The notes beneath the pieces are model-generated. The model was not told the DNA's origin. It made no database searches and saw only the letters and a list, made by a program, of their open reading frames with translations. From assembly GCF_029892095.1 (NCBI RefSeq), contig NZ_JARZAE010000004.1, forward strand, positions 620,001-684,000: a stretch of DNA of 64,000 bases, read 5' to 3'. This document shows, piece after piece, positions 647 through 64,000 of the stretch (its first letter is position 1; every line of letters begins with the position of its first letter). The DNA comes from Kitasatospora sp. MAP12-44. Its GTDB lineage: Bacteria > Actinomycetota > Actinomycetes > Streptomycetales > Streptomycetaceae. The position numbers and the translations under genes are program-made.

Positions 647-36180
<35,534 letters not shown>

Positions 36181-47085: not shown

Positions 47086-48575
47086 CTTGTCTCCCCCAGG
47101 GCGTGGACGGGCCAGTACTGGTCGTCAAGCCGCCACCGCCAGGATCCGCTCTCCCGGTAGAGGGCGGCGGTGCGGGCGATGGGCTGGCGCATCGCCCGGT
47201 TCGCGGTGAAGTCCATGCAGTAGCCGGCGGTGTTGGCGAAGGCCAGCAGGTCGCCGGCGCGCGGCAGTTCGGGGAGGAAGACCTGGCGCCGGGTGATCAG
47301 GTCGCTCTCCAGGCAGAGGTTTCCGACCAGGTAGACACCGACCGCGCCCCCTGCCCCGGTCGGCGCCGGGGCGTGCGCCGGGGCCTGACGCGGGACGAGC
47401 AGCGGATCCATCAGCACGCCGTGCTGTTCGAGACCGACATCGGCGGCGTTCAAGTCCAGCCGGACCAGCGGCTCACCGGCCGGGGTGCGGCGGACCTCGA
47501 CGACCTTCGCCAGCACCGCGCCGCACTGGTCGACCAGCGCACGGCCGGGCTCGATGTGCAGGTCGTAGAGGTTCTCCAGCAGCAAGGTGGCGAGCGGGCG
47601 GCCGAGCGAGGGCGCGTCGAGCGACAGCAGCTCGTCGAGATAGCCGTCGGCGGCGACCGCCCGGTGGGCCGGGTAGAGGCTCAGCGCGCCGCGCAGCCGG
47701 CCCGACTCCGCGCGCAGCCCGTAGCCGTGCCGCTGCCAGGTCAGTGCGGGCCGCCGACCGAGCACGGACTCGCTCAGCTCGGTCGTGTAGCGCTCCCACT
47801 GGGCTTGGCTGGCCAGGTAGTTGACGCCGAAGCCGCCGCCGATGTCCACGGCTGCGGGGCGCAGGCCGCGCCGCCGGCACTCGTCCAGCACGCGGACGCA
47901 GGCCTCCAGCGCGACCGCCTTCTCCGGCAGGCCGACGGTGTCGAGGTGGTAGGCGGCGCCGGTCAGCTCGATGGCGTCCTGATGCCGCTCGACCGCGTCG
48001 AGCAGCGCGGCCGACTCGGCGAGGTCGGTGCCGAAGCGGCTGGGCCGGCTGAGCACCGCCGTGCCCGGTGAGCGAAAACCCGACAGGCGCAGCAGGACCG
48101 GCACCCGGGGCAGCCCCTGCTTGCGGACCAGCGCGGACAGTTGCTCCAGCTCGGCCTGGGAGTCGAGGTTGACGGTGGCGCCGACCCGGGCGGCCAGCCA
48201 GAGGAACTCCGGGTTCTTGGGGCCGGTCGCCATGATCCGGGGGCCGGTGAACCCGGCGCCGAGCGCGTGCTGCAGCTCGGCTGCCGAGGCGACGTCGATG
48301 CCCGCGTCGGTCGCGGCGAGTTGGCGGACCAGTGCGCTGGAGCGGTTCGCCTTGTGCGCGAAGTAGATCTCTCCCGAGAGGTGGTGGCGTCGGTGGACCG
48401 CGCGGAACCGCGCGACGTTCTCGGCCAGTTGCTCGGGGAGCACGACGTTGAGCGGGGAACCCAGCGCGTCCACCAGCGTGTGCAGCAGGCCGGTGGAGTC
48501 CAGGGCCGATCGGAGCAGCGGCTCCAGGCGCGGTTCCAGGTACAGCGGTTCGTCAGGTAACGGCGGCTGTTGCAT
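47082..48575 (-). CDS. LysA/Y4yA-like PLP-dependent (fold-type III) decarboxylase homologue
   Basis: 497 aa from ATG 48575. The alanine-racemase-like barrel carries the PLP Lys in IYFAHKANRS, GGGFGVNY and EPGRAL. The C-terminal barrel has LCLESDLI and NTAGYCMDF, which replace the CESGD and GAY motifs of diaminopimelate decarboxylase. I recall the Y4yA family of rhizobia as the closest named group, there also beside a cysteine synthase-like gene. SbnH of staphyloferrin B synthesis is another paralogue of this fold. The substrate is unknown; decarboxylation of an amino acid built by the two downstream enzymes is a reasonable guess. Confidence 0.8.
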   Translation of the reverse strand: MQQPPLPDEPLYLEPRLEPLLRSALDSTGLLHTLVDALGSPLNVVLPEQLAENVARFRAVHRRHHLSGEIYFAHKANRSSALVRQLAATDAGIDVASAAELQHALGAGFTGPRIMATGPKNPEFLWLAARVGATVNLDSQAELEQLSALVRKQGLPRVPVLLRLSGFRSPGTAVLSRPSRFGTDLAESAALLDAVERHQDAIELTGAAYHLDTVGLPEKAVALEACVRVLDECRRRGLRPAAVDIGGGFGVNYLASQAQWERYTTELSESVLGRRPALTWQRHGYGLRAESGRLRGALSLYPAHRAVAADGYLDELLSLDAPSLGRPLATLLLENLYDLHIEPGRALVDQCGAVLAKVVEVRRTPAGEPLVRLDLNAADVGLEQHGVLMDPLLVPRQAPAHAPAPTGAGGAVGVYLVGNLCLESDLITRRQVFLPELPRAGDLLAFANTAGYCMDFTANRAMRQPIARTAALYRESGSWRWRLDDQYWPVHALGETR

Positions 48576-48753
48576 GGCGACGTGACTCCCCTGCCCCTCC
48601 CACCGGAACGACGTGCTCCGGGCGCGCGCGTGCCGGCGGGGCGGGAACGCGTCCACGCCCCGCACCACCGCGTCCGCAACGGTAGCCGCTCCGCCCGCTC
48701 GAAGACAGGCCGCGTGTCAACAGCCGTCGGGCCCGGGCGCCCGGCCCGGGAGT

Positions 48754-49278
48754 TCAGCTGCCGGCCTGCGCCGCCGCGCAGCCCGTACAGATTCCGGCCA
48801 GCTCCACGGTGTGCTGGACGTCCGCGAAGCCGGAGGTCTGTGCGATCGTGTCGACCCAGCTCTCGACCGGGCCGGCGTCCACCGGGACGCTGATCCCGCA
48901 CCGGCGGCACAGCAGGTAGTGGCGGTGGTCGGCATCGGGGCGGTAGCGGAAGAGGCGCTCGCCGTTGGAGTCGCGGACCACGTCTGCCCGGCCGCCTGCG
49001 GCGAGCGCGGTGAGCGTGCGGTAGACGGTGCTCAGACCCACCCGCGAGCCGGCCACCAGCATCCCGGCGTGCAGTAACTGGGCACTGATGAACTCCTGGT
49101 AGCCGGCCAGTGCTTGGAGGACTTCGGTGCGCTGGGGTGTCGGTCGCCAGAGCATCTCGGCCGCGTCCGGTGGCGGCGGCGGCGGTGGGCCGGTGGCGCG
49201 GTCGACCGCGGTGGTGGCCGCGTTGACCGCCCGGCGATCAGCTGTCGCCGCGAGCGCGGAGGCGTGGGTGTCGTGCAC
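48754..49278 (-). CDS. zur: zinc uptake regulator, Fur family (Zur)
   Basis: 174 aa from GTG 49278 with GGGGGA upstream. The winged helix contains TPQRTEVLQALAGYQEF and GLSTVYRTL. Metal sites show HRHYLLCRRCG and the second pair ICTGC, the structural zinc cysteines of Fur-family proteins. When zinc is bound it represses zinc import genes. It ends the zinc importer operon (26 bp after the permease stop), the usual streptomycete arrangement. A proline run (PPPPPPP) in the N-terminal extension is unusual. Confidence 0.9.
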   Translation of the reverse strand: MHDTHASALAATADRRAVNAATTAVDRATGPPPPPPPDAAEMLWRPTPQRTEVLQALAGYQEFISAQLLHAGMLVAGSRVGLSTVYRTLTALAAGGRADVVRDSNGERLFRYRPDADHRHYLLCRRCGISVPVDAGPVESWVDTIAQTSGFADVQHTVELAGICTGCAAAQAGS

Positions 49279-49304
49279 GGTGTTCCCCCGTTGCGAGTTG
49301 GCGG

Positions 49305-50183
49305 TCAGGCCGCTGTCATGGCCCTCTCCCCGGCCGGAGGCTGAGAGAGGTTCGGAGCCGAGCCCGCGCGCCTGGGCCGCTTGAGGAAGGTGGCGGCATA
49401 GACCGCGCTTGCGGTGGCCATGATGGCGAAGCTCGGCGGCAGCTTCGGGAACTGCGCGCTGATGAGCAGCCCGCCCCACATCTCGGCGACCGCGAGGCCG
49501 GCGGAGAGCGCGAGAGCGCGGAACGGGCGGTCGGTGAGGCGGATCGCGGCGCCGGCCGGGGCGGCGAGCAGGCCGAGCAGCAGGAGCGAGCCGACCGCCT
49601 GGGTGGCCTCACCGGCGGTGGCGCCGACCAGGGCGAGGAAGCCGAAGCCGAGCAGGCGTACCGGGACCCCGCGGGCGGCGGCGACGGCTTCGTCCAGGGT
49701 GGCGAAGAGCAGCGGCCGGGCGATCAGCAGGATCAGCAGGCAGACGACGCTCGCGATGGCGACGGCCACGGAGGTCTGGTCACCGTGCAGGCCGAATATC
49801 GAGCCGAAGAGCACGCTGGTGCCCGCACCGCCCTGGCCGGAGCCGCTGCGGGAGGTGGTGTAGATGGTCAGGAAGAACGCGCCCAGGCCGAGGATCCAGG
49901 CGAAGACGTTGCCGATCACCACGTCGTCCGGCCGACCGCGTCGCCCGAGCCCGCCGATCAGCAGCCCGACGCCGATGGTGGCGGCGAACAGGCCGAGCCG
50001 CAGGTCGTACCCGCCGGCCAGGGCCGCCATCGCACCGGTGAACGCGACGTGGCTGAGCGCGTCGCCGGTGAAGAGCTGGGCGCGCAGGACCAGGAAGTAG
50101 CCCACCAGGCCGCAGGCGAGCGCGATGAACGTGCCGGCCAGCAGGGCGTGCTGGAAGAACGGCTGGGTGAACACGGAACTCAT
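49305..50183 (-). CDS. znuB: zinc ABC transporter permease 1 (ZnuB/ABC-3 family)
   Basis: 292 aa with eight or so membrane helices and the ABC-3 hallmarks: GDALSHVAF early, ARGVPVRLLGFGFLALVGATAGEATQAVG in the middle and LLAAPAGAA later. ATG 50183 overlaps the stop of the second permease (ATGA). It forms the membrane channel together with that permease, powered by the ATPase at 51093. Confidence 0.92.
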   Translation of the reverse strand: MSSVFTQPFFQHALLAGTFIALACGLVGYFLVLRAQLFTGDALSHVAFTGAMAALAGGYDLRLGLFAATIGVGLLIGGLGRRGRPDDVVIGNVFAWILGLGAFFLTIYTTSRSGSGQGGAGTSVLFGSIFGLHGDQTSVAVAIASVVCLLILLIARPLLFATLDEAVAAARGVPVRLLGFGFLALVGATAGEATQAVGSLLLLGLLAAPAGAAIRLTDRPFRALALSAGLAVAEMWGGLLISAQFPKLPPSFAIMATASAVYAATFLKRPRRAGSAPNLSQPPAGERAMTAA

Positions 50184-51109
50184 ACGGTGCCTCCGATGGC
50201 GGGCAGCGCGCTGCCTGGGGGCGCCGCGCGCCGCCCCCAGGCCTCGCGGGCCCAGCGCAGCAGGTGCGCCAGGACGTAGCCGGTGAACGCGAAGCCGGTG
50301 ACGAAGAACCCCAGCGGGTAGGGCTGGTAGTACGCGGCGACCAGCCCGGCCCAGCAGGCGCCCAGCGCGAGCAGGACGGCCAGCAGCATGCTCAACGCAG
50401 GCCGGGCGGTGAGCTGTTGGGCGGTGGCGGCGGGTATCACCATCAGCGCGAAGACCAGCAGCGTCCCGGTCATCTCGCTGGCCTCGGCGGTCGCCGCGCC
50501 CAGCAGCACCAGGAAGACCGCACCCAGCAGCCGCACCGGCACGCCGCGCCCGGCAGCCACCTCGGGATCGATCGAGGCGAACAGCAGCGGCCGGCCGATC
50601 AGCGCCAGCACGGCGAGGACCAGCACGCCGGCGATCGCCAGCACCAGCACCTGGCCGGTGGTGATGCCCAGGAAGTCGCCGAACAGCAGGGCGGTGGGCC
50701 CCTCCAGCAGGCCCTTGTAGAGACTGATGAAGAGGAAGCCGCAGGCCAGGGCGAACGCCTGCACCGTCCCGGTGACGGCGGACTCCTCCGCGCCGCTCTC
50801 GCGCCCCTTGCGCCCGAGCGCCGCGATGACCAGCGCCGCTCCGACGCAGAAGCCGAAGTAGCCGAGCGTGAGGCTGAATCCGGCCAGCGTGGCGAGCGCC
50901 GCGCCGGGGAAGGCGGCCACCGACAGGGTGTGCCCGGCGAACGTCTGGCGGCGCAGCACCATGAACCAGCCCACCACCGCGCAGACGACGGACACCACCA
51001 GGCCGGCCCGGAAGGCGTTCACCATGTACAGGTAGGAGCAGATGTCCTGGAAGTCCGCAATCAGGTTCCAGGAGAAGATGGGTGACGCAGCATCAGATGC
51101 CAGCAGCAC
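50180..51109 (-). CDS. znuB: zinc ABC transporter permease 2 (ZnuB/ABC-3 family)
   Basis: 309 aa. I chose GTG 51109 because GGGAGG lies 8 bases upstream; GTG 51118 abuts that site. Motifs match permease 1: MVLRRQTFAGHTLSVAAFPGA and AGRGVPVRLLGAVFLVLLGAATAEASEMTG. The start overlaps the ATPase gene by 17 bp. Two non-identical permeases imply a heterodimeric channel. Confidence 0.9.
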   Translation of the reverse strand: MLLASDAASPIFSWNLIADFQDICSYLYMVNAFRAGLVVSVVCAVVGWFMVLRRQTFAGHTLSVAAFPGAALATLAGFSLTLGYFGFCVGAALVIAALGRKGRESGAEESAVTGTVQAFALACGFLFISLYKGLLEGPTALLFGDFLGITTGQVLVLAIAGVLVLAVLALIGRPLLFASIDPEVAAGRGVPVRLLGAVFLVLLGAATAEASEMTGTLLVFALMVIPAATAQQLTARPALSMLLAVLLALGACWAGLVAAYYQPYPLGFFVTGFAFTGYVLAHLLRWAREAWGRRAAPPGSALPAIGGTV

Positions 51110-52025
51110 GAACCGCACCTCCCAGGCCCAGCTCGGCGTGGCGGTCGCTGTGCAGCGCCGGCGCCTCGGGCTGACCGACCACCACCAGCCGGCCGTCACT
51201 GGTGTGCAGCACCTCAACCGGCGTGCGGTACAGGCGGGTCAGCGTCTCGGAGGTGATCACCTCGGTCGGCGAGCCGGAGACGGCGCCGCCCTCGGCGATG
51301 TAGACCACCCGGTCCAGGTGGTGGAGTATCGGGTTCACGTCGTGCGCGACCATCACCACCGCCACCTGCTCCTGGTGGCAGATCCGGCCCAGCAGCGCCG
51401 CGATCGCGCTCTGGTTGGGCAGGTCCAGGCTGTCCAAGGGTTCGTCCAGGAGCAGCACTTGGGGGCGCCGTATCAGCGCCTGGGCGATCAGCAGGCGCTG
51501 CTGCTCGCCGCCCGAGCACTGGCCGATCGGCCGGTGCGCGTACGCTGCGGCGCCCACCAGCTCGATCACCGCCTCGACGCGGGCACCCGCCGCCCGCCGC
51601 CTGGCACGACCCAGGCCCGGGACGGGGATCCCCCACTGATCCCCGTCCAGGCCCAGCCGCACCACGTCCACCCCGCGGATGCGCACGCTCGCGTCGAAGC
51701 TGCGGCGCTGCGGCAGGTACCCCACTGCGCTGCTGTGCGCCCCGGGCGCGCCGCCGAGCACCCGCACCTCGCCGGCTGCCGCCGGGAGCACCCCGAGCAG
51801 CACCTTCACCAGGGTCGACTTGCCGACCCCGTTGGGGCCCAGCACGGCGGTGAACTCCCCGGCCCCCACGGTCAGATCGACACCCGACCAGAGGGTCCGC
51901 CCGCCCACCCGCACGGCCGCGCCGCGCAGGGACAGCACCGGCTCCGCGCCGGGTGCCGGCGACGTGGCGACGGGGACGGAGCGGTCCTGGTCCGTTCGAG
52001 CCTTCTCGGTCGGGTGAATGCTCAC
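51093..52025 (-). CDS. znuC: zinc ABC transporter ATPase (ZnuC)
   Basis: 310 aa with Walker A GPNGVGKST, signature CSGGEQQR, Walker B LLLDEPLDSLD and switch VMVAHDVNPI. The first 30 residues are an extra hydrophilic tail. The ATG overlaps the stop of the binding-protein gene (ATGA), and the gene lies in the znuA-C-B-B-zur order. Confidence 0.93.
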   Translation of the reverse strand: MSIHPTEKARTDQDRSVPVATSPAPGAEPVLSLRGAAVRVGGRTLWSGVDLTVGAGEFTAVLGPNGVGKSTLVKVLLGVLPAAAGEVRVLGGAPGAHSSAVGYLPQRRSFDASVRIRGVDVVRLGLDGDQWGIPVPGLGRARRRAAGARVEAVIELVGAAAYAHRPIGQCSGGEQQRLLIAQALIRRPQVLLLDEPLDSLDLPNQSAIAALLGRICHQEQVAVVMVAHDVNPILHHLDRVVYIAEGGAVSGSPTEVITSETLTRLYRTPVEVLHTSDGRLVVVGQPEAPALHSDRHAELGLGGAVRAAGI

Positions 52026-52984
52026 TTGCCCGTCGCCGCCTTCAGTGCGTCCTCGATGCCCTGCAGCTCCTTGACCTGCCAGTCCTGGAAGGTGCTGCTG
52101 GCCGGCGCGAGGGTCTCGGTGACCTGGGCGACCGGGATGCCCTGCGCCTTGGCCGCGTTGACCTGGGCCACCACGTCCGGGTCGGAGTTCTGGGTGTTGA
52201 AGACGTAGATCTTGATCGCCTTGGTGGCGATCTGCTGGTCGATCAGGGTCTTGTCGGCGGCGGTCGGGTCGGTGCCCTCGCTCTCCGCGTCCAGGAACGT
52301 CTCGGGGGTGAGCATTTTGAGGCCCACGCTCTCCGCCAGCGGGGTGACGATCGACTCGGAGGCGCCGATCGGGGTGCCGGCGTACTTGGTCTTGATGTCC
52401 GTTTCGAGCTGGTTGTACTGCGCCAGCGTCTGGTTCTCGAAGGTCTGCTTCTGGGTGTCGAAGTAGGCCGCGTCAGCCGGGTCTATCTTCTGGTAGTCGG
52501 CGGTGATCTGGTCGATCACCTTGTAGACGCTGGCGTGCGAGTACCACTGGTGGGGGTTGTCACCCTCCTTCTTGCCCACCAGGTCGCCGACCTTGAGGGC
52601 GGTGCGGGCGCTGTTGGGGTTGGCGGCGAGCAGCTTGTCCGACCACGCGTCGTAGCCGATCCCGTTGGTGATCGCGAAGTCCGCGCCCGCGATCGTGCGG
52701 CCGTCGGCGGCCGTCGGCTCGTAGGAGTGCGGGTCGGTGTCCGGGTTGGTGATGATGCTCGACACCTTCACGTGCGAGCCGCCGAGCTGGGTGGCGATGC
52801 TGCCCCAGAAGTTCTCCGCCGCCACCACCTGGATGGTCTTGGAACCGGAGGCTCCGGACGCGCTCGTCTTCGGCGTGGAGGAGGTGGAGCAGGCGCTGGT
52901 GGCCGCGAGGGCGACGACCGCGGCCGCGGTCAGCGCGAGGCGAGCGGGGTGTCTGCGGACAGCGGCGGGCAGGACGGTGCGCAT
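52022..52984 (-). CDS. znuA: zinc-binding lipoprotein (ZnuA/AztC family)
   Basis: 320 aa with a signal peptide and lipobox ATSAC. Cluster 9 binding-protein features are a first metal His in TDPHSYEP, a second in NPHQWYS and acidic ligands near the C-terminus. There is no long His-rich loop. First gene of the zinc operon, 93 bp below the nearer Zur box. Confidence 0.92.
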   Translation of the reverse strand: MRTVLPAAVRRHPARLALTAAAVVALAATSACSTSSTPKTSASGASGSKTIQVVAAENFWGSIATQLGGSHVKVSSIITNPDTDPHSYEPTAADGRTIAGADFAITNGIGYDAWSDKLLAANPNSARTALKVGDLVGKKEGDNPHQWYSHASVYKVIDQITADYQKIDPADAAYFDTQKQTFENQTLAQYNQLETDIKTKYAGTPIGASESIVTPLAESVGLKMLTPETFLDAESEGTDPTAADKTLIDQQIATKAIKIYVFNTQNSDPDVVAQVNAAKAQGIPVAQVTETLAPASSTFQDWQVKELQGIEDALKAATGK

Positions 52985-53845: not shown

Positions 53846-55006
53846 GTGAAGATCGTGGCACAGGTGAAGCTGCTGCCCCGGTCCGCGTATGACGCGGATG
53901 CGATGGCGGCGACGCTGCGAGCCTGCAACCGGGGCGCGCGCCTCGCCTCGGAGATCGCGTTCCGGACCGGGAAGGTCCGGCGCAACGACCTGCACGATGA
54001 GGTGTACTACCGGCTGAAGGCCGAGTTCGACCTCGGTGCGCAGGCGGCGGTCCGCACCGTCAAGAAGGTGTGCGACGCGTACGCGACGCTCGCGGGGAAC
54101 ATCCGCAGCGGTCAGTTGACGGGCAAGTCCCGGCGCAAAGCGGAATCCAAGCCGATCGGCTTTCGCGAGGACGCGGCGCAGCCGTTCGACGACCGGATGC
54201 TGACGTGGAACCTGGACGATCGGACCGTGTCCATCTGGACGGTTGCCGGGCGGATCAAGGGCATCCCGTTCGTGTGCTCGCCGCAGGCGTTGGAGCTCCT
54301 CGCCTCGCGTAAGGGCGAGTCGGATCTGGTGCTGCGGGACGGCCAGTGGTTCCTGTACGCCACCGTCGAGCTGCTTGAGCCCCCGGTGTCCGAGCCGACC
54401 GGTTGGATCGGCGTGGACCTGGGGATCGTCAACATCGCGACCACCAGCGACGGCCAGATCATGTCCGGGCGCCGGGTGGACCGCTACCGCAAGCGGATGC
54501 GCACCACCGTCGCCAACCTGCAGGCCAAACGCACCAAATCCGCCAAACGCCGACTGAAGGCGCTGCGCCGGCGCGAGTCCCGCTTCGCCACCGACACCAA
54601 CCACTGCATCTCCAAGACCATCGTCACGACCGCTGAACGCACCTCGTGCGGGATCGCCCTCGAAGACCTCAAGGGCATCCGGCAGAGGGTTACGGCCAAG
54701 AAGGACCAGCGGTATCGACTGCACTCCTGGGCGTTCGCCCAGCTCGGCGGCTTCGTCGAGTACAAGGCGCGGCGTGCGGGTGTGGCGGTGGTCCATGTGG
54801 ACCCCCGCAACACCTCCCGCCAGTGCTCGCAGTGTTGGCACACCCATCGATCGAACAGGGTGTCGCAGTCCTGGTTCGCGTGCCGCTCCTGCGGGAGCGT
54901 CATGAACGCGGACCTCAACGCCTCCCGCAACATCGCCCACAGGGCCGATGCTGTGTGGCAGCGGGGCAGAGTCAACTGCCCCAGCACCGTCAGGCGACAC
55001 GCCTAG
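53846..55006 (+). CDS. tnpB: TnpB, RNA-guided DNA endonuclease of the IS element
   Basis: 386 aa from GTG 53846; the frame is open upstream but that part is not TnpB-like. RuvC residues are all present: D in GVDLGIVNIA, E in CGIALEDLKG, D in MNADLNASRNIA. The zinc ribbon has CSQC and CRSC. The N-terminal part (VAQVKLLPRSAYDADAMAATLRACN) is typical of the actinobacterial branch. TnpB uses an omega RNA from the element's right end to cut DNA next to its TAM. Nothing suggests inactivation. Confidence 0.93.
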   Translation: MKIVAQVKLLPRSAYDADAMAATLRACNRGARLASEIAFRTGKVRRNDLHDEVYYRLKAEFDLGAQAAVRTVKKVCDAYATLAGNIRSGQLTGKSRRKAESKPIGFREDAAQPFDDRMLTWNLDDRTVSIWTVAGRIKGIPFVCSPQALELLASRKGESDLVLRDGQWFLYATVELLEPPVSEPTGWIGVDLGIVNIATTSDGQIMSGRRVDRYRKRMRTTVANLQAKRTKSAKRRLKALRRRESRFATDTNHCISKTIVTTAERTSCGIALEDLKGIRQRVTAKKDQRYRLHSWAFAQLGGFVEYKARRAGVAVVHVDPRNTSRQCSQCWHTHRSNRVSQSWFACRSCGSVMNADLNASRNIAHRADAVWQRGRVNCPSTVRRHA

Positions 55007-56062: not shown

Positions 56063-56530
56063 ATGAAGGCCGTCATCGTGTGCGCCTCCGTTTCACACGG
56101 CAATACGCGTCGTGTCGCCGACACCATGGCCCAGGTACTGGGCGCGAAGGTCGTCTCCCCCGAGGAGGCCGAGCCGGCGGAGCTGGCCGGCGCCGAGCTC
56201 GTGGGATTCGGCTCGGGCGTCTTCTACGGCAGGCTCCACCCCAGCCTGACCGACTTCGTCAAGGCACTTCCCACCAGGCGGGGCCGGGCGTTCGCCTTCG
56301 CCACCAGCGGGCTCCCCGAGATACCGCTGGCGCCTTTCACCCGCCCCCTGGTCCAGCTCCTCGAAGGCAAGGGCTTCGAGGTGGACGGGAGCTTCTCGTG
56401 CCGGGCGTTCGACACCTGGACGCCCTTCAAGCTCGTCGGCGGTATCAACAAGCAGCGGCCGAACGTCGGGGACCTGGCCGCCGCGCGGGCGTTCGCCGAG
56501 CAGCTGCGGGCACCTCATTCCTACCGGTAA
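56063..56530 (+). CDS. flavodoxin-domain protein
   Basis: 155 aa. The N-terminal strand and phosphate loop read VIVCASVSHGNTRRVADTM (FMN-binding S-x-x-G-N-T), followed by LVGFGSGVFYGRLHP and FAFATSGLPE, as in flavodoxin_5-type electron carriers. GAAGGGA is 8 bases before the ATG. It converges on the GltB-like gene with only 22 bp between them. It may supply electrons to a nearby enzyme, but no partner is evident. Confidence 0.88.
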   Translation: MKAVIVCASVSHGNTRRVADTMAQVLGAKVVSPEEAEPAELAGAELVGFGSGVFYGRLHPSLTDFVKALPTRRGRAFAFATSGLPEIPLAPFTRPLVQLLEGKGFEVDGSFSCRAFDTWTPFKLVGGINKQRPNVGDLAAARAFAEQLRAPHSYR

Positions 56531-56552: not shown

Positions 56553-57818
56553 TCATGGCGTTGAGCAGTCGCCGACGCCCCGCGGCAGCCGGACGTCCTC
56601 GGCGCAGACGTCCGCTGCCCGGTACTTGCCCAAAGCGCTGATCAGCAGCCGCAGTTCGAGCGCGATGCTCTCGACCAGGCGTTCCAACCCCGCCTCGGGG
56701 TCCTCGTCCACCGCGAGCAGCGCGGCGCGTCCAAGGCCTGCGGCGCGGGCGCCCAGTGCCAGCGACTTCACGACGCGACTGCCCTCCCACATCCGCCCCG
56801 AGGCCAGCAGCGGCCGCCCCTCGGCGCGGGCGTCCAGCAAGCACTCCCCCAGCGGGAGCCCGACCTGCTGGATGAACGCCGTCGGCGCCCAGCCGGTGCC
56901 GCTCTCGGCGCCGTCGACCGTCACCGCGTCCGCTCCGGCCCGCCACGCCGTCTCGGCGGCGAGTGCGAGGTCCCGGGCGGGGTGCAGCTTCACCCAGACC
57001 CGGGCCCGCGGGAAGTTGTTGCGCATCAGCTGGATCTGCCGGGCGAGGATCTCCGCGGTGAAGGTGCCGGGGCTGCCGCTGCGCAGGAACTGGTCGGCCG
57101 ACTCGCCGAACACGGACTCGATCGTGTACTGCGAGGAGGCCCGGGCCGCTCCCTCGGCGCCCAGCAGCGTCATGCCGCCCAGGCCCGGCTTCGCGCCCTG
57201 ACCCGTCTTCAGTTCAAAGCCCAACCGCCCGCTCTGGAGCAGCGGTTGGACCCTGGGGTCGCTGTAAACGAGGTTCCAGACCTCGGCGTCAGCGTCGTCC
57301 GTGCTCTGCTGCACGACCACTCCACCGACCGCCTCGGACTCGGACGCCTGGGCGTAGGCGAGGATGCGATCGAGCAGCCCCGGGGCCGCAGCGCCCCGGT
57401 AGCCGCTGGTCAGGACGATGTTCTCGCCGATGACCATCGGGATCCCCAGGCGCCCCGCCTGACGGCTCGCCGCCAGGCCGAGGTCACCGCTCGCGACGCG
57501 GGTCGAGCCGAACGCCGAGACGTACAGCGGCAGCGCGGATTCGAACCCGCCGACCGTGCTGCGCAGGTCGACGTCCGTGTGCAGCGGCTCGCGTCCCAGG
57601 TCGATGAGCTTCTCAAGGCGCAGCGGCATGAACACCGGTGGCACCAACCGCGCGGCGTCGAGCAGGTCGGCGACGTCCTCCGAAAGGCCCGGGGAGCACG
57701 AGCGGCCGAACATCGTCGCCCCGTAGCCCGCGCGATCCGGAAACACCGCCTCCGCGCCCACCCGGGCCCGGCGCCGCACGGCCTCCTGCGGAAATCCCGG
57801 CGCGCTGAGCCCGGTCAT
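56553..57818 (-). CDS. glutamate synthase domain-2-like FMN enzyme (stand-alone)
   Basis: 421 aa TIM-barrel flavoprotein. FELKTGQGAKPGLGGMTLL and WVKLHP, then AVTVDGAESGTG and SGRMWEGSRVVKSLALGA are the FMN-binding barrel motifs of the GltB synthase domain. It lacks the glutaminase (domain 1) and the GXGXG domain, and no GltD is adjacent. It may use free ammonia or ammonia from a partner to form an amino acid from a keto acid. ATG 57818 overlaps the AsnA-like stop (ATGA), so the two enzymes are made together and probably act in one path. Confidence 0.82.
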   Translation of the reverse strand: MTGLSAPGFPQEAVRRRARVGAEAVFPDRAGYGATMFGRSCSPGLSEDVADLLDAARLVPPVFMPLRLEKLIDLGREPLHTDVDLRSTVGGFESALPLYVSAFGSTRVASGDLGLAASRQAGRLGIPMVIGENIVLTSGYRGAAAPGLLDRILAYAQASESEAVGGVVVQQSTDDADAEVWNLVYSDPRVQPLLQSGRLGFELKTGQGAKPGLGGMTLLGAEGAARASSQYTIESVFGESADQFLRSGSPGTFTAEILARQIQLMRNNFPRARVWVKLHPARDLALAAETAWRAGADAVTVDGAESGTGWAPTAFIQQVGLPLGECLLDARAEGRPLLASGRMWEGSRVVKSLALGARAAGLGRAALLAVDEDPEAGLERLVESIALELRLLISALGKYRAADVCAEDVRLPRGVGDCSTP

Positions 57819-58861
57819 GGTGCGACCACCCCCGGCAGCTTCGGAAATGCCACCGTCTCCCACGCGTGGTCCAGTCCAGTCACATATCGCGTCAGTCGCT
57901 CGACGCCGATGCCGAATCCGGCACTGCCCGGGATCCCGGCCCGCAACAGCTCGAGATACCACTCGTACTTCGCCGGATTCTCCCCGGTCTCCCGAATGCG
58001 TCCGATGATGCGCTTGTAGTCCGCCTCGCGCTCACTACCGCTGGAGACTTCACCGAACCCTTCGGGCAGGATCAGGTCGAAGTTGTTCAACACACCCGGG
58101 CGCTGCGGGTCTTCCTTGTCGTAGAACCCGCGCGAACCCTTCGGGTAGTCGGTGATGAAGAACGGTCGGTCGGTCTTCTCCGACAGGATCTTCTCCCCCG
58201 ACCAGTCGATCTCGGCATCGGGGTTCTGCCGGTGGTCGAGCTCGACCAGCGTGTCGACCGCCTCGGTGTGGGTGATCCGCCCGAACGGCCCGTCGACCAG
58301 CGGTCGGAAGGCGTCGGGGTCGCGGCCCAGCAGAGCGAGCTCCTCGCTGCGGTCCCGGACCACCCGGGCGACCGCGAAGGCGACCACGCCTTCCGCGGTG
58401 CGCATCGCGGCGGCCCGGTCGCCGCCGGCGATCTCCACATCCAGCTGGTGGAACTCGGCCAGGTGGCGGCCGGTGCCGACGGTCTCCGGCGGTTCCAGGC
58501 GGACGTTCGGGGCGACGCAGAAGATCTTGTCGAAGGCGGTGAGCGCCGCCTGCTTGTACAGGATGCTGCTCGTCATCAGCTTGTAGCGGTGGCCGTAGTA
58601 GTCCACGTCCACCTGCTTGGCACCGCGCGCGCCGGGGTCGGTGACCGGGCCGATGATCGGCAGCAGCAACTCGGTGAAGCCCTGCCCGCCCAGATACTCG
58701 CGGGCCGCGGTGAGCAGGGTGTTCTGCACCCGCAGCGCGGCCTGGGTGATCGGGGAGGCGAGGTGCTCGCGCGGGCTCGGCGGCATACGGTGCGCTGACG
58801 CGGGGGCGTAGGACGCAGGACCGGACTGCGTCGAAAGGTCGGTACTCGGCTCGATGTCCAC
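57815..58861 (-). CDS. archaeal-type asparagine synthetase A (AsnRS paralogue)
   Basis: About 348 aa from GTG 58861; ATG 58786 is an alternative and neither has a clear ribosome-binding site. It is a class II synthetase catalytic core without an anticodon-binding domain. It aligns along its length with the Pyrococcus AsnRS-like asparagine synthetase: ELLLPIIGPVTDPG, KIFCVAPNVRLE, EFHQLDVEIAGG, NNFDLILPEGFGEVSSG and motif 3 GFGIGVERLTRY. That enzyme makes Asn from Asp, ATP and ammonia. Beside glutamate mutase, a beta-methyl-Asp substrate is tempting. Confidence 0.85.
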   Translation of the reverse strand: MDIEPSTDLSTQSGPASYAPASAHRMPPSPREHLASPITQAALRVQNTLLTAAREYLGGQGFTELLLPIIGPVTDPGARGAKQVDVDYYGHRYKLMTSSILYKQAALTAFDKIFCVAPNVRLEPPETVGTGRHLAEFHQLDVEIAGGDRAAAMRTAEGVVAFAVARVVRDRSEELALLGRDPDAFRPLVDGPFGRITHTEAVDTLVELDHRQNPDAEIDWSGEKILSEKTDRPFFITDYPKGSRGFYDKEDPQRPGVLNNFDLILPEGFGEVSSGSEREADYKRIIGRIRETGENPAKYEWYLELLRAGIPGSAGFGIGVERLTRYVTGLDHAWETVAFPKLPGVVAP

Positions 58862-59187
58862 GAGGTGGACGCTAGCCGCGCGGCGCCGGGCACCTCGGCG
58901 GCCTCGCAGGTTCCTGACGCCCCGAAGGGGCCGGGTCGCGGCGGCTCGCAGGTTCCTGCCGGGGCGACGTTTGCCGGTCGGTCTCATTCCCAGCAAATCA
59001 TCAGGAACCGTACACGGACCATCTTGTGTGCCATTAGCGAGGAGGACTTGCAGATCCTTAACGGCGGCGATGGGGAACGGACTCGCCACGTTCAAAGCGC
59101 ACCCGTATGCTTCCGCCCGGTGTGGTGCTCATTCGAGCTTTTTGGCGGACTGATGTCCGTTCAGAGCCGGTTCTACGGAGTCTGCGC
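58862..59187. promoter_or_regulatory. divergent promoter with three GGTTCCTG operator-like elements
   Basis: 326 bp between the AsnA-like (minus) and regulator (plus) genes. CTCGCAGGTTCCTG occurs at 58903-58916 and 58945-58958, exactly 42 bp apart, and its core is repeated inverted as CAGGAACC at 59002-59009. Each full copy holds the dyad CAGG-TT-CCTG. A regulator probably binds here. Confidence 0.6.
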
Positions 59188-60165
59188 GTGAGGGATGTTG
59201 TGAGAAAACTGTCTACTAGTAGCACAGTTCAGGATTCAACCGACCAGCACCTGTACGGAGGATCGCGAAGACTGGCGGATTTCATCGACTCCCGGTGTTG
59301 CGCGATCCTCGACGATCACGAAAGCGGCCTGACGACGCTGGGGAACGCCCTCGCGGACGAGGCCAGGGAGAGAGCGCTCCCGACGGCGATCACGGCGCCG
59401 ACCGCCGACCCGGAGCCGTCGGGCGGCACCGGGATCGAGCGAGCACTCTCGGAAGCCCTGAGCCTGATCGACAACGCCCTCGCCGAGCACCGCAACGTCG
59501 GTGGCGTTCGAGCCGAGCTGGAACTGGCCGACAGCGACGAGGCCGCCGCACTGACCGTCAAACAACTGGTGTGCGAGGCACGCCGCGAGCTCATCTGCGT
59601 GGGCTCGCCGGCCCGGATGGCCCGCGGCCCGCTGCGCCCGGCCGCCGAGGCGCTGCGGGCACCGTCCGGAGCCACCGCGCCGATGCGGGTGCTGTTCCCG
59701 GTCCGCGGCAACGACGACCGCCATCGGGTCCGCGCACTGCTCCCCGGTGACGGCCAGAACGAGTCCCGCGTCACCGAGGCGAAGCTGCACGAGATGCTGC
59801 TCGCCGATCGCCAGACCGGCCTGCTCATCTCCCGGTTCGGGCCGGACCAGTGGCAGACCCTGATCGTCCGCAGCCCGGTGATCCTCACCGCGCTGCACGC
59901 GCTGTTCTCGCACAGCTGGGAGTCCGCCACTCCCCTGCTGCCGGTATCGCTGCTGGACGATCCGCGCCAGAGCGAGAAGACCCGGCTCATCCTCGCCTCG
60001 CTCAGCGAGGGGCAGACGGACGACGTGGCGGCGCGTGAACTGGGCATCTCGGTGCGCACCTACCGCAAGTACGTCGCGGACTTCATGCGCGACATCAACG
60101 CGACGTCGCGCTTCCAAGCCGGCGTGCGGGCAGCGCAGTTGCGGCTACTGCCCGCCGCCTCCTAG
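59188..60165 (+). CDS. LuxR-type helix-turn-helix regulator
   Basis: 325 aa from GTG 59188, with GGAG 7 bases upstream; GTG 59200 is an alternative. The C-terminal ~60 residues have ILASLSEGQTDDVAARELGISVRTYRKYVADFM, a LuxR/GerE-type helix-turn-helix. The central part (KQLVCEARRELICVGSPARM, then VLFPVRGNDDRHRV) resembles the sensor-like region of actinobacterial TrmB/LuxR stand-alone regulators and has no receiver domain. It stands between the two biosynthetic operons and is the best candidate for binding the GGTTCCTG sites. A CTACTAGTAG palindrome (59213-59222) lies in its first codons. Confidence 0.8.
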   Translation: MRDVVRKLSTSSTVQDSTDQHLYGGSRRLADFIDSRCCAILDDHESGLTTLGNALADEARERALPTAITAPTADPEPSGGTGIERALSEALSLIDNALAEHRNVGGVRAELELADSDEAAALTVKQLVCEARRELICVGSPARMARGPLRPAAEALRAPSGATAPMRVLFPVRGNDDRHRVRALLPGDGQNESRVTEAKLHEMLLADRQTGLLISRFGPDQWQTLIVRSPVILTALHALFSHSWESATPLLPVSLLDDPRQSEKTRLILASLSEGQTDDVAARELGISVRTYRKYVADFMRDINATSRFQAGVRAAQLRLLPAAS

Positions 60166-60179
60166 GCGCGGCGCCGGGC

Positions 60180-60695
60180 TCAGCGAGCCCGCCGGAACTG
60201 TCGCAGCGCCGAGGCGAACAGGAGCCCCCAGATGAGGAACGACAGGTCCCAGACCCACAGGTGCCACCACAGGGCCTTCCACTCGATCGGCGTGGACGGC
60301 TTGACCACGTGGGTGGCCGCGAGCACGTTCGTCACTTCCAGTACCCCGCCGTAGAGCGTCAGTCCGACCGCGGCGATCCACGCGAAGAACAGCACCACGC
60401 GGCGCGGCAGCCGGCGGCCCCAGGGCCGCAGCAGCGCCAGCGCCAGCGCGGCGCCGACCAGTTTCAACACCCCGGTGACCCAGACCGCCACGTAGATGGC
60501 GGTGTCGCCGGCCAGCGCGCTCCGCTCGATCGCCCCGCCGACGGTGTCGAGCAGAGCGCGCCCGCCGCACCCCCAGTAGAAGCTGATCCCGGCGAAGATC
60601 AGGCCCCACCCGCACGCCGCGTAGGCGGGCCAGGTGGATGGACGCGTCCCGGAGGTCGTGGCGGGCTTCCCGGCACTGGCTGCTTCGATGTTCAT
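60180..60695 (-). CDS. DUF3995 membrane protein
   Basis: 171 aa from ATG 60695, with AAGGTGAG just upstream; GTG 60755 would add 20 residues. Four membrane helices, with YAACGWGLIFAGISFYWGCGG at the start and WVWDLSFLIWGLLFA near the end, as in DUF3995 proteins of streptomycetes. Function unknown. It follows the SRPBCC gene in the same direction and ends 14 bp from the convergent LuxR stop. Confidence 0.8.
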   Translation of the reverse strand: MNIEAASAGKPATTSGTRPSTWPAYAACGWGLIFAGISFYWGCGGRALLDTVGGAIERSALAGDTAIYVAVWVTGVLKLVGAALALALLRPWGRRLPRRVVLFFAWIAAVGLTLYGGVLEVTNVLAATHVVKPSTPIEWKALWWHLWVWDLSFLIWGLLFASALRQFRRAR

Positions 60696-60768
60696 GGGCT
60701 CACCTTCGTCGTCGAGGCTGAACAGTTGGCTAACGGAGGGTGGCGCCATCGACACAGCGCGTACTCAC

Positions 60769-61338
60769 TTACGGCACTAGCGCGTTGTTGACGGCTCGTA
60801 GGATGTCTCTGCGGATCAGCCCGCTGCCGGCCCGGATCGCCAGCCAGTAGGCCGTGAAGCTCCGCTTGGTCGCGGCGTCGGTGCTGAGGACGCGGGTCTC
60901 GGTGATCAGCTCGGTGCCGCCGTCCTTGGCGGTGAACCGGAAGTTCATCGCCACCTTCGACCAACCGGGCTCGGCGTACGCGGCGAACTCCTCGGCCGTC
61001 CACTCCGTCTGCGGTGGCTGCGCCGGGCGCATCGCGGCGTAGCGGGCGACCTGGACCAGCACCATCTCGTGCGGCTCCTCGGCGATCAGCAGGGTCGGCG
61101 CCATCGAGTCCATCACCCGGGCGTCGCCGTCGCCCGGCACGACGCCGCTGCGCCACACGCGCGGACCGCCGCGCAGGCGCATCAGCGCGGTCGTGACCGA
61201 CAGGTCGCGCACCCGCAGGTCCCACAGGGCGTCCCACACCTGCTGCGAGCTCGCCGCGAACTGCCGCCGATGGACCTCGTGTTGATCCCACTGCGGCATG
61301 AGCAGATCGAGCTGGGTCGGCTGGTCAGCGTGCTCCAT
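60769..61338 (-). CDS. SRPBCC-fold (START/polyketide cyclase-like) protein
   Basis: 189 aa: opening QFAASSQQVWDALWDL, central strand WSKVAMNFRFTAKDGGTELITETRVL and C-terminal helix FTAYWLAIRAGSGLIRRDIL are the hallmark of SRPBCC helix-grip proteins. These bind hydrophobic ligands; some are cyclases or carriers. GGAGG lies 4 bases before ATG 61338, inside the 3' end of the mutase gene, so it belongs to the mutase operon. Role unknown. Confidence 0.78.
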   Translation of the reverse strand: MEHADQPTQLDLLMPQWDQHEVHRRQFAASSQQVWDALWDLRVRDLSVTTALMRLRGGPRVWRSGVVPGDGDARVMDSMAPTLLIAEEPHEMVLVQVARYAAMRPAQPPQTEWTAEEFAAYAEPGWSKVAMNFRFTAKDGGTELITETRVLSTDAATKRSFTAYWLAIRAGSGLIRRDILRAVNNALVP

Positions 61339-62665
61339 CGGTCCTCCGTCCGCCCGGCAGGGCTGTTGTCCCTCCGACGAGGCTCCACCTGTCGGCGTCC
61401 CCGTCGTAGCGGTCTCTCATGCAGGACAGCGCGCTCAGCAGCTCCATGCTGCCCAGGCGCGCGGAACGCGAGCGTCGAGCCGCCGCGCCCAGGGGCAGGT
61501 GCCCGGTGTCGGACCAGGCCAACCGCCCGTCCGGCTCGATCCGGCTGCGGGTGCGGCCGGGGTTGTCGGGGTGCAGGCAGTACGGCACGTCGAGGAAGCC
61601 GCGCTCCACGCCGAGGGCCAGCGCCTGGCCCACGTCGCCGTGCAGGTTCAGCACCGCTTCGATCAGGGCAGTGGCCTCCGCCAGGACACCGCTCTCCGTC
61701 GCCGGCTCGGCCGGCCCCAGCAGCAGCCGCTGCGAGGCCGCGGCGACCGCGCCGGCCAGTTCCAGCGCCTCGATGTTCTCCGCGACGGTCGGCACCCGGG
61801 TGGCCTCGGCGGAGGTCTTGACGATGAGCCGGGCCGCGTCGCCGCGCACCGCGAGCTCGGCCGAGTCGCACAGCAGCCGCAGCGCGCCGTCCCGGGAGGT
61901 CGGATACACACCCATGTAGGTGTACAGCACGATGTGCCAGTCCAGGTCGCCCAGGTACTCGGCGGCGAGGACCCGCAGGGCGGCGAGCGCCTCAAGGTCC
62001 TGGCTCCTGCTCGTCTGCTGCGCGTAGCTCAGCGAGACACTGCGCAGGCCGTGCGCGCGGAAGAACACGCATTCGAGCACGGAGATCGCGATCAGCAGGC
62101 TCGGCGGACACAACTGGCCGAGCATGCAACCGCCGAAGCTCTCCAGGTGGGGCTCGGTCCCGAAGGTGTCGCGCAGCCGCAGGAACAGCCGGCAGGCTCG
62201 CGACCACTCCCGAATCGAGTCGCGCACCGGGACTCGGCCGTACGGCAGGCAGTAGGAGATCGGCCCGCCCTCGGTGGCGTCCAGACCCAGGGCGGTGAGC
62301 GCCTCGATGATCTCGCAGGGCTGCGCCGAGCCGTGCCGGACCTGGACCGGAAAGTCCGGCCCCGCGAGCCCGCCGAGCACGCCACGGGTCACCGCGGCCG
62401 GGTGGTTGACGATCGGGTAGCCGTTGAGCCGCGTGCCGTCGGCGAGGGCGGTCCGCGCGCTGGCGTAGTCGCGGACCCGGGTGTAGCTGTCCAAGGTGAT
62501 CGTGCCCACCGAGGTGGCCCGCGCGGCACGGGTCGCGAGCAGCCCGCGCCGCATGTCCGCCGGGTCGCTGAAGCCCATCCGCGGCTGCACCACCAGCTCA
62601 CCCCGGCGATGGGCCGCGGCGACGAACGCCGCGAACGGCCCCGGCGCCTCGATCGATGTGGTCAC
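61325..62665 (-). CDS. glmE: glutamate (methylaspartate) mutase, large subunit E
   Basis: 446 aa from GTG 62665, which overlaps the small-subunit stop (GTGA). Family features are VQPRMGFSDPADMRRGLL, the VRHGSAQPCEIIEAL strand, GGPISYCLPYGR with the active-site region, and FGGCMLGQLCPPSLL. With the cobalamin-binding S subunit it rearranges L-glutamate to (2S,3S)-3-methylaspartate. Antibiotic clusters such as friulimicin and vicenistatin use such mutases to supply 3-methylaspartate. An isolated mutase pair of this kind usually signals secondary metabolism in streptomycetes. Confidence 0.88.
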   Translation of the reverse strand: MTTSIEAPGPFAAFVAAAHRRGELVVQPRMGFSDPADMRRGLLATRAARATSVGTITLDSYTRVRDYASARTALADGTRLNGYPIVNHPAAVTRGVLGGLAGPDFPVQVRHGSAQPCEIIEALTALGLDATEGGPISYCLPYGRVPVRDSIREWSRACRLFLRLRDTFGTEPHLESFGGCMLGQLCPPSLLIAISVLECVFFRAHGLRSVSLSYAQQTSRSQDLEALAALRVLAAEYLGDLDWHIVLYTYMGVYPTSRDGALRLLCDSAELAVRGDAARLIVKTSAEATRVPTVAENIEALELAGAVAAASQRLLLGPAEPATESGVLAEATALIEAVLNLHGDVGQALALGVERGFLDVPYCLHPDNPGRTRSRIEPDGRLAWSDTGHLPLGAAARRSRSARLGSMELLSALSCMRDRYDGDADRWSLVGGTTALPGGRRTDGAR

Positions 62666-63153
62666 CGCGTCACGGCCAGGGGCCCGCCGGCGAGAACGGA
62701 AAGGTAGTGCGTGAACGAGCCGATGTCGACGCCGTCCTGGAACACGGCGTCGAAGCCGGCTGCCAGCAGCGCCACCACCCGGTCGGCGCCGACCTCGCCG
62801 GCCACGCCGAGCTTGCCGCCGATGACCGCGGGGATCCCGAACAGCTCCTCGACCTCGCGCAGCGCCGTGATCAACCGGACGCCGTCGATGTGCCCGTGCC
62901 CGTTGACCGAGCTGACCACCAGCAGCTGCGGCCGATGCCGCAGGCAGGCCTCGATGACCTCGCCATCGGGCGTGGTGGCGCCGAGATTGACCACCTCCCA
63001 GCCCAGTTCCTCCAGCAGCAGGCGCAGATACACCAGGTTCCAGGTGTGCGCATCGGAGGAGACCCCGGTCAGCACCACCGTGGGGCGGCCATCCGCGTCG
63101 GGCGCGGCCGGCTGAGGCGCCGCGCATCCGGCCCGGGCCGGCAGAGGAGGCAT
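62662..63153 (-). CDS. glmS: glutamate (methylaspartate) mutase, B12-binding subunit S
   Basis: 163 aa. The B12 motif reads SSDAHTWNLVYL: Asp and the cobalt-ligating His of DxHxxG are kept, but Gly is replaced by Asn. Further B12-fold motifs are SSVNGHGHID and IGGKLG. The extended N-terminus (about 30 residues) is Pro/Ala-rich. ATG 63153 shares a base with the aminotransferase stop (TGATG). It binds adenosylcobalamin and pairs with the E subunit encoded next. Confidence 0.87.
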   Translation of the reverse strand: MPPLPARAGCAAPQPAAPDADGRPTVVLTGVSSDAHTWNLVYLRLLLEELGWEVVNLGATTPDGEVIEACLRHRPQLLVVSSVNGHGHIDGVRLITALREVEELFGIPAVIGGKLGVAGEVGADRVVALLAAGFDAVFQDGVDIGSFTHYLSVLAGGPLAVTR

Positions 63154-64000
63154 CAGCACGCCTCCGTCACACGGGAGGCATGCACGGACGCCTGCCCGGA
63201 CGCCGACCCGGGCGCCGGCTCGGACGCCGGGGCCGGGAGCCGGTCCAGCCAGCCATGGCGGTCCGGGACCCGGCCGCGCTGCACATCGGCCAGGACGGCA
63301 TGCAGCCGGGAGGCCACCGGCCCGACCTGGCCGCTGCCGATCGTCCACGACCCGGCCGAGGACTCCGCGCGCGCGACCGGGGTCACCACCGCCGCGGTGC
63401 CGCACGCGAACGTCTCCGTCATGGCACCGCTCTCGGCGTCGGCCCGCCACTGGTCGACGGTCAGGCGCCGCTCCTCGACCGCCAGGCCCAACTCCCGGGC
63501 CAGCGTCAGCAGCGAGTCGCGGGTCACCCCGGGCAGCAGGGTGCCGGTCAGCGGCGGCGTCACCAGGACCGCCTCGGCGCCGGAGCCGTAGACGAAGAAC
63601 AGGTTCATGCCGCCCATTTCCTCGACCCAGCGGTGCTCGGCGGCGTCCAGCCACACCACCTGCTGGCAGTTGTGCTCGGCCGCCTCGGCCTGCGCGAGGT
63701 ATCCGGGGGCGTAGTTGCCCGCGCACTTGGCCTCACCGGTGCCGCCGGGCGCGGCGCGGGTGTACTGCTCGCAGATCCAGACCGACACCGAGGGCGCGTC
63801 CGCTCCGAAGAACGCGTCGGTGACGCACGCCATCAGCAGGAACTCGTAGCTGCGCGAAGGCCGCAGCGCCAGCGAGACGTCGGTGGCGAACATCAGCGGC
63901 CGCAGGTAGAGGCTCTGCGTCGGATGCGACGGCACCCACGGCTCGTCCACGGCCAGCAGCTCCCGGACCGCCTGCACGAACAGCTCCTCGGGCAGCTCCG
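63153..64000 (-). CDS. branched-chain amino acid aminotransferase, C-terminal part
   Basis: The frame is open to the window edge, so the N-terminus is outside. Fold-type IV PLP enzyme: the lysine region TGEAKCAGNYA, then HRWVEEMGGMNLFFVY and ETFACGTAAVVTPV match actinobacterial IlvE. The tail carries a low-complexity linker (APASEPAPGSASGQ). As first known gene of the mutase operon it may handle methylated oxo-acids or aspartate analogues instead of (or besides) valine, leucine and isoleucine. Confidence 0.87.
   Translation of the reverse strand, partial: ELPEELFVQAVRELLAVDEPWVPSHPTQSLYLRPLMFATDVSLALRPSRSYEFLLMACVTDAFFGADAPSVSVWICEQYTRAAPGGTGEAKCAGNYAPGYLAQAEAAEHNCQQVVWLDAAEHRWVEEMGGMNLFFVYGSGAEAVLVTPPLTGTLLPGVTRDSLLTLARELGLAVEERRLTVDQWRADAESGAMTETFACGTAAVVTPVARAESSAGSWTIGSGQVGPVASRLHAVLADVQRGRVPDRHGWLDRLPAPASEPAPGSASGQASVHASRVTEAC

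Follow-up and report, generated by a model that had tools for sequence, protein, structure and literature searches.

In the genome of Kitasatospora sp. MAP12-44, the genes of a predicted glutamate mutase (subunits MutS and MutE) lie near those of an asparagine-synthetase-A-like protein (hereafter AsnA) and of a lone barrel related to the glutamate synthase GltB. The question raised by this locus is whether the four proteins form a single route and, if they do, what a GltB-like barrel contributes to it. The stretch analysed here (the window, 64,000 nucleotides long) comprises bases 620001-684000 of contig 4 in a genome of 9.04 Mb. An earlier note on this DNA had proposed, from the letters alone, a possible route to 3-methylaspartate and 3-methylasparagine, with a branched-chain aminotransferase (BCAT) at the head of the mutase operon. 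Its observation of the genes is confirmed, and their recurrence goes beyond chance, as the same four genes recur together in the loci that we collected with the barrel. The proposed chemistry also stands as the best reading: the four genes probably encode a route from glutamate through 3-methylaspartate to 3-methylasparagine, feeding a nonribosomal peptide synthetase (NRPS) cluster. Two parts of the proposal did not hold, since the set is not undescribed and the BCAT is probably outside the route. The core has a published precedent; what is new here is that AsnA is paired with the GltB-like barrel independently of the mutase, and that the name glutamate synthase does not suit this barrel.

In the route that we favour, the four genes would supply a building block to an NRPS cluster which starts in the window and continues rightward. 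MutS and MutE, acting as an adenosylcobalamin-dependent glutamate mutase, would convert L-glutamate into (2S,3S)-3-methylaspartate, and the AsnA-like enzyme would activate the side-chain carboxylate with ATP and amidate it to 3-methylasparagine (a step that would draw the mutase reaction forward as well). The flavin mononucleotide (FMN) barrel would be an obligate partner of the amidation, and not of the mutase, our preferred guess being that it brings in the nitrogen of the amide or has some other part in the amide's making. The product would then be taken by an NRPS adenylation domain, perhaps the one with the code DLTKLGTV. Each of these reactions is one that we infer from family assignments, conserved active-site residues and genetic linkage, which are the observations reported below.

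A conserved cassette of four genes

Named genome contigs were scanned with the barrel, the best 80 of 118 relatives being retained, and two loci were added from a class-wide genome search (barrel in 3 of 246 genomes, this one included), which gave 82 distinct loci after exclusion of the short duplicates L010 and L011. Gene presence was scored with tblastn, and several loci are short contigs, so that some absences are contig ends. AsnA is present in 81 of these loci, MutE in 77, MutS in 74 and MbtH in 53. AsnA stands directly before the barrel, on the same strand and less than 300 bp away, in 77 of its 81 loci, and the order MutS-MutE-AsnA-GltB, on one strand and within 6 kb, is found in 61 of the 73 loci having all four genes. 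In the remaining 12, the mutase comes after the pair (4), lies on the other strand (5) or is separated by intervening genes (3). MutS, MutE, AsnA and the GltB-like barrel therefore constitute a conserved cassette outside this genome, in settings that vary widely (gene names by eye): some have a two-module NRPS with MbtH, an exporter-like and a phosphopantetheinyl-transferase-like gene, others SbnA/SbnB-like genes, or ATP-grasp-like genes with no NRPS in reach. The single cassette locus without AsnA (L076) has a counterpart of the same layout in genome G300, where AsnA is on a separate contig and NRPS genes leave both contig ends; in G512, NRPS genes leave the end of the AsnA contig, and in both genomes the separation likely reflects one broken cluster. 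The distances of the four proteins correlate at 0.85-0.93 over 72 loci; these values do not separate the gene pairs and were not used.

The assignment of the mutase subunits, as GlmE and GlmS in the earlier note, is borne out by Pfam matches and by conserved active-site residues. Both pass their Pfam cut-offs (Table 1), although MutE scores 160 bits against the NCBIfam equivalog TIGR01503 (cut-off 390.1) and MutS 60.3 bits against NF002612 (cut-off 110); despite these missed cut-offs, we take them to be divergent members of the glutamate mutase family. MutE aligns to the solved epsilon subunit GlmE (6h9e) at 4.3e-32. In the solved enzyme, R66, R100 and R149 form an arginine claw, with further contacts from E171 and Y177 (PMC10947579), and these residues map to R29, R63, R110, E132 and Y138 of MutE, respectively (numbering counted by hand from the 6h9e alignment), each at least 97% conserved among 76 sequences. 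The DxH motif of B12 binding in MutS (D9 and H11) is likewise at least 97% conserved (75 sequences). A distant second MutE homologue, with 37% identity, is encoded elsewhere in the same genome (G000:C4:7495727-7496926).

The AsnA-like protein had been described as a paralogue of asparaginyl-tRNA synthetase (AsnRS) that lacks an anticodon domain and aligns with the Pyrococcus asparagine synthetase, and this description stands. Its score against NF005052, the NCBIfam model of "asparagine synthetase A", is 445.7 bits (cut-off 368), and in the Pfam and NCBIfam scans no anticodon domain was found, PF00152 being the sole Pfam match. In four alignments, with two archaeal asparagine synthetases (3p8t and 1nnh, from Pyrococcus) and with two AsnRS, our protein has QLDxE and SAGxGIG in common with the archaeal synthetases, unlike the two AsnRS, which have HLELE and MVEPE at the QLDxE position. 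Furthermore, the region around its SSGSERE matches 3p8t (SSGGERE) and almost matches 1nnh (ASGGERE), where the AsnRS have IGGSQR. These three stretches may mark an aspartate-type pocket. What distinguishes the window type from the archaeal enzymes, with which it shares the class II core without an anticodon domain, is its occurrence with an FMN barrel (see below) and its probable substrate, which would be methylated.

Published systems give this cassette a partial precedent. The streptolydigin genes slgE1 and slgE2 (Streptomyces lydicus) presumably encode mutase subunits. Contrary to the earlier note's statement that no pathway with this exact set had been described, slgE1-slgE2-slgE3 are reported for 3-methylaspartate in that cluster, together with an AsnRS-like protein, SlgZ (PMC5357945). 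The likeness, drawn from the published description only, is that a mutase pair, a GltB-like and an AsnRS-like gene lie near each other; the precursor of streptolydigin ends in a tetramic acid, whereas the genes of the window stand beside an NRPS peptide cluster. Omnipeptin, from soil-metagenome clusters, is alike in product (and is likened here by product, not by genes), being a bacterial nonribosomal peptide with beta-methylasparagine and, to its authors' knowledge, the first such bacterial NRPS product (PMC6710260); the term "mutase" appears nowhere in the main text of that paper. Glutamate mutases are also reported to supply 3-methylaspartate to antibiotics in vicenistatin (VinH/VinI) and friulimicin (GlmA/GlmB) biosynthesis (PMC11284099, PMC9113097), and vicenistatin-type clusters activate and load 3-methylaspartate itself (PMC11284099). 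Among the matches listed by our searches of the open-licence literature we met no description of the widespread four-gene cassette as such. If the route is correct, one portable four-gene kit would explain 3-methylasparagine in many actinobacteria, and the cassette genes would predict which silent clusters contain this residue.

Pairing of AsnA with the barrel and the role of the barrel

As the locus set is anchored on the barrel, the need of AsnA for the barrel is not demonstrable from that set alone. Each protein was also searched in draws of 297 related genomes (AsnA at E<=1e-60, barrel and MutE at E<=1e-40), in which shared ancestry inflates the co-occurrence counts, so that a hypergeometric value computed from them does not give a fair probability. 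AsnA is found in 55 of the 297 genomes and the barrel in 55, the two genome lists being identical, and the barrel lies within 600 bp of 54 of the 60 AsnA places (of the other six, two are on other contigs, three are 6.3-7.6 kb from the barrel and one is 766 bp away). MutE is found in 106 genomes, 52 of which also have AsnA and the barrel and 54 of which are without the barrel. In a phylum-wide draw of 266 genomes, AsnA and the barrel occur in the same two. The pairing of AsnA with the barrel is thus strict and independent of the mutase, and it is, as far as we could find, new. MutE is missing at its threshold from three genomes with the pair, one of which (G423) is in 1290 contigs and has the pair on a 4.2-kb contig; the other two are considered below. 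As a contrast to the cassette, 14 MutE places lacking the pair were hand-picked (not at random), each with 20 kb of sequence: neither AsnA nor the barrel was found in any of the 14 at E<=1e-8, and seven contain modular polyketide synthase, decarboxylase-like and adenylation genes (vicenistatin-type by eye). The genome of one of the 14 stretches (L208) has an AsnA-barrel pair elsewhere.

The barrel itself matches PF01645 at 61.2 bits (cut-off 20.4) and FMN_dh at 51.2 bits, with an NMO match under the cut-off, and reaches the cut-off of no NCBIfam model. It also has the GQGAKPGxGG stretch of the GltB synthase domain. As the earlier note had observed, the glutaminase is lacking: none was found in the Pfam or NCBIfam scan of its 408 residues. 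The iron-sulphur ([3Fe-4S]) cysteine motif CxnCxnC is present in none of the 83 aligned members of the barrel family, in which one lone cysteine column reaches 92%. A PF01645 search of the same genome gave six places; two of them, a full-length GltB frame and one further long GltB-type protein, have the cysteine motif after the barrel. In glutamate synthase, the glutaminase and the iron-sulphur motif serve to provide ammonia and electrons. The protein is, on its sequence, an FMN-type barrel (FMN binding is predicted) without the parts of glutamate synthase for ammonia and electrons.

These features bear on the role printed for the streptolydigin counterpart. SlgE3 is named a ferredoxin-dependent glutamate synthase that makes glutamate from 2-oxoglutarate (PMC5357945), and by the same reasoning the barrel would feed glutamate to the mutase, an idea in keeping with its PF01645 match and with glutamate being the mutase substrate. 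The lack of a glutaminase here and of the cysteine motif in all 83 family members, this motif being present in two other GltB-type proteins of the genome, means that the label misfits the barrel family seen here. In addition, the barrel is absent from 54 of the 106 MutE genomes, yet tracks AsnA in 55 of 55. We regard this role as quite improbable, the least likely of those considered here.

The closest solved folds may point to a different kind of chemistry. With the AlphaFold model of the barrel (mean predicted local distance difference test, pLDDT, 88.7), Foldseek places 2-hydroxy-acid oxidases closest, glycolate oxidase on top, and VIA-align gives type 2 isopentenyl diphosphate (IPP) isomerase at Z 28.6 (root mean square deviation 3.1, 314 residues aligned) and glycolate oxidase at Z 27.4. 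No GltB chain is among the 50 VIA-align matches listed, which is not evidence of its absence. The 2-hydroxy-acid oxidases and type 2 IPP isomerase are FMN enzymes that are not known to need an iron-sulphur cluster. With such folds as its nearest solved relatives, and with strict AsnA pairing even in genomes free of the mutase, the barrel might act directly on the amino acid, either ahead of the amidation or following it (by oxidation, deamination, epimerisation or a redox-neutral change), giving a modified 3-methylasparagine as the product. The streptolydigin residue is not known to need more than amidation and N-methylation, which speaks against such a modification, as perhaps does omnipeptin, in which beta-methylasparagine itself is reported (PMC6710260). 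We consider action on the amino acid possible, although on the unlikely side.

Two roles of the barrel stay in play: it may supply nitrogen to the amidase, or it may work on the amino acid directly. The first can be put more specifically: AsnA and the iron-sulphur-free barrel may form a new two-protein amidation system, in which the barrel would free ammonia from glutamate or another amino acid, or hold an imine, and pass the nitrogen to an ammonia-dependent class II synthetase which has no glutaminase. The synthetase would act on 3-methylaspartate and, where a cluster is free of the mutase, on other acids. This proposal is tentative, and we hold it to be no likelier than direct action on the amino acid. 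Whichever applies, the FMN partner poses a concrete enzyme question, as the printed SlgE3 label does not fit the family seen here.

Adenylation codes and the destination of the product

The larger of the two NRPS genes to the right of the window has one adenylation domain with the code DLTKLGTV, which we take to be of Asp/Asn type (all codes come from our own alignment and not from a dedicated predictor). Several observations weigh against the route from glutamate to 3-methylasparagine as laid out above, or against its destination in this cluster. Two modules of a separate NRPS on the left carry DATKMGHV, so that the product could go there. The code most often found near the cassettes is D[AS][FY]YWG.. 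(in 43 of the 68 loci for which an adenylation domain was captured; a further 7 have a DxTK-type code and 18 neither), as against DLTKLGTV here. On overall score, AsnA is nearer to AsnRS (closest solved relative 1x54, 2.5e-57) than to the archaeal asparagine synthetase A (3p8t, 8.6e-46), and with its structure model (pLDDT 83.5) Foldseek puts AsnRS first and the archaeal enzyme from rank 17. The near-complete genomes G359 and G400 have AsnA and the barrel without MutE (at E<=1e-40), in clusters with LeuA/LeuC/LeuD/BCAT-like genes (by eye except BCAT), which implies that the pair can exist without the mutase. For the streptolydigin protein SlgN1, the substrate listed is 3-methylaspartate (PMC11253843), and amidation might therefore come later. 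Finally, among the 14 stretches with MutE only, L205 is the closest parallel to the mutase operon of the window: without AsnA or GltB, it has MutS, MutE and, behind them, a protein which is 55% identical over 176 residues to the family-less protein at 60769-61338.

The L205 parallel, taken with the three genes that separate the pair from the mutase operon here, suggests that this mutase may serve as a source of plain 3-methylaspartate. On this alternative, 3-methylaspartate would go to the right-hand cluster, and the AsnA-GltB pair would serve another pathway or be a relic. The neighbours of L205 (by eye) include DsbA-like and ketosynthase-like genes, and DsbA-type and ketosynthase genes also occur on the right side of the window, while the left-hand modules with DATKMGHV could offer the pair another outlet. 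The alternative has to contend with the single ordered block that the genes form in 61 of the 73 loci carrying the full set, and with the fact that AsnA and the barrel are full-length matches here, with the conserved residues of their families. We judge it unlikely, somewhat less so than glutamate supply by the barrel, and continue to favour a route to 3-methylasparagine.

The code D[AS][FY]YWG.. was considered as a marker of 3-methylasparagine and set aside as suggestive only; it occurs in the 43 of 68 loci and is absent from the clusters of the window. When one domain with this code was searched in 294 genomes, six places had at least 72% identity, all in MutE genomes; five of them are also in genomes with AsnA and the barrel, and the contig of the sixth stops 60 bases past MutE. 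Places at 53-58% identity are mixed, many being in genomes without AsnA.

In two loci, L189 and L190, AsnA and GltB stand without the mutase, beside LeuA/LeuC/LeuD/BCAT-like genes (by eye); in L189 the LeuD frame extends into a region that is SnoaL-like, and a VioC/AsnO-like dioxygenase is present (by eye). Such a set might make a 3-alkylaspartate, or else a homologated amino acid, by another route.

Gene layout in the window and its surroundings

The positions of the cassette genes and their neighbours are given in Table 1. The earlier description of the genes as nearby and co-translated is right as far as AsnA and the barrel are neighbours on one strand, 35 bp apart; they do not overlap, and three genes (the LuxR-like gene on the opposite strand, the DUF3995 gene and the family-less gene) intervene before the mutase operon. 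None of the genes at 59200-61338 is matched in the 82 cassette loci, and a pathway link of the LuxR/GerE-like gene is one we can only infer. A flavodoxin-like gene at 56063-56530 (PF12724, 36.3 bits) was considered as the electron donor of the barrel and rejected, being unmatched in the 82 loci at E<=1e-8.

Table 1. Cassette genes and adjacent features, in window coordinates
Feature	Position	Strand	Family matches and remarks
Lone GltB-type FMN barrel, 408 aa	56553-57779	-	PF01645 and FMN_dh; glutaminase and iron-sulphur cysteine motif absent
Asparagine-synthetase-A-like class II synthetase core, 323 aa	57815-58786	-	NF005052, PF00152
LuxR/GerE-like gene	59200-60165	+	PF00196 21.6 bits, HTH_23 23.1 bits, each slightly below cut-off
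DUF3995 gene	between the LuxR/GerE-like gene and the family-less gene		
189-aa protein without family, downstream of MutE	60769-61338	-	no match in Pfam and NCBIfam scans
MutE/GlmE, glutamate mutase epsilon subunit	61325-62665	-	PF06368 287.7 bits
MutS/GlmS, glutamate mutase sigma subunit	62662-63078	-	B12-binding PF02310 39.3 bits
Branched-chain aminotransferase (BCAT)	63153-64355 (crosses the window edge at 64000)	-	NF009897 438.7 bits
SnoaL-type gene	64352-64720 (beyond the window edge)		SnoaL_2 78.4 bits

Extension of the contig past 64000, as the earlier note had suggested, completes the BCAT and reveals the SnoaL-type gene, MbtH and two NRPS genes (six modules together, as counted from motifs), the last module being read through an apparent frame shift. 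The BCAT, which had been noted as heading the mutase operon, passes NF009897; its membership in the route is unlikely, because the SnoaL-type gene overlaps it by 4 bp and because of a published pair of similar make-up, whose isomerase is presumably of the SnoaL/NTF2 type. In that precedent, L-allo-isoleucine arises from the joint action of an aminotransferase and an isomerase (PMC7459860), and with moderate confidence we consider the BCAT and the SnoaL-type gene to be probably such a pair, outside the 3-methylasparagine route. The BCAT was set aside on these grounds and is not disproved as a member; it has a match in 5 of the 82 loci (four from Lentzea and a partial one from Sphaerisporangium), as well as in G359 and G400, and it might yet have a keto acid of the route as its substrate.

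The frame shift in the larger right-hand NRPS gene falls before its last adenylation-thiolation-thioesterase module (about 10400-12600 of locus L006; 686430-688561 of contig 4) and is apparently an assembly error or a sign of a broken gene. Also on the right side (L007, 12487-19939) lie an ABC transporter, a DsbA-type gene, a hydrolase-thioesterase and three ketosynthase-like genes, a set that resembles cinnamoyl-peptide clusters; a similar set stands beside MutS-MutE in L205.

On the left, the separate NRPS cluster (window 1-36180 and L008 14979-20000) has NRPS genes of 7354 and 4490 residues with 11 adenylation domains, four of which share the code DVWHMSLV, and is preceded by a dihydroxyphenylglycine-like set (DpgA-D with an aminotransferase, by eye). 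Between this cluster and the cassette, the region 44543-52984 encodes a PALP-rhodanese fusion and a pyridoxal-phosphate-dependent decarboxylase, along with, by eye, a class V aminotransferase, a Fur-type regulator and a ZnuABC-type metal transporter, and is perhaps a metal-responsive metallophore locus. A TnpB-type transposon-like protein (by eye) and gene fragments at 53846-55006 lie between this metal locus and the cassette.

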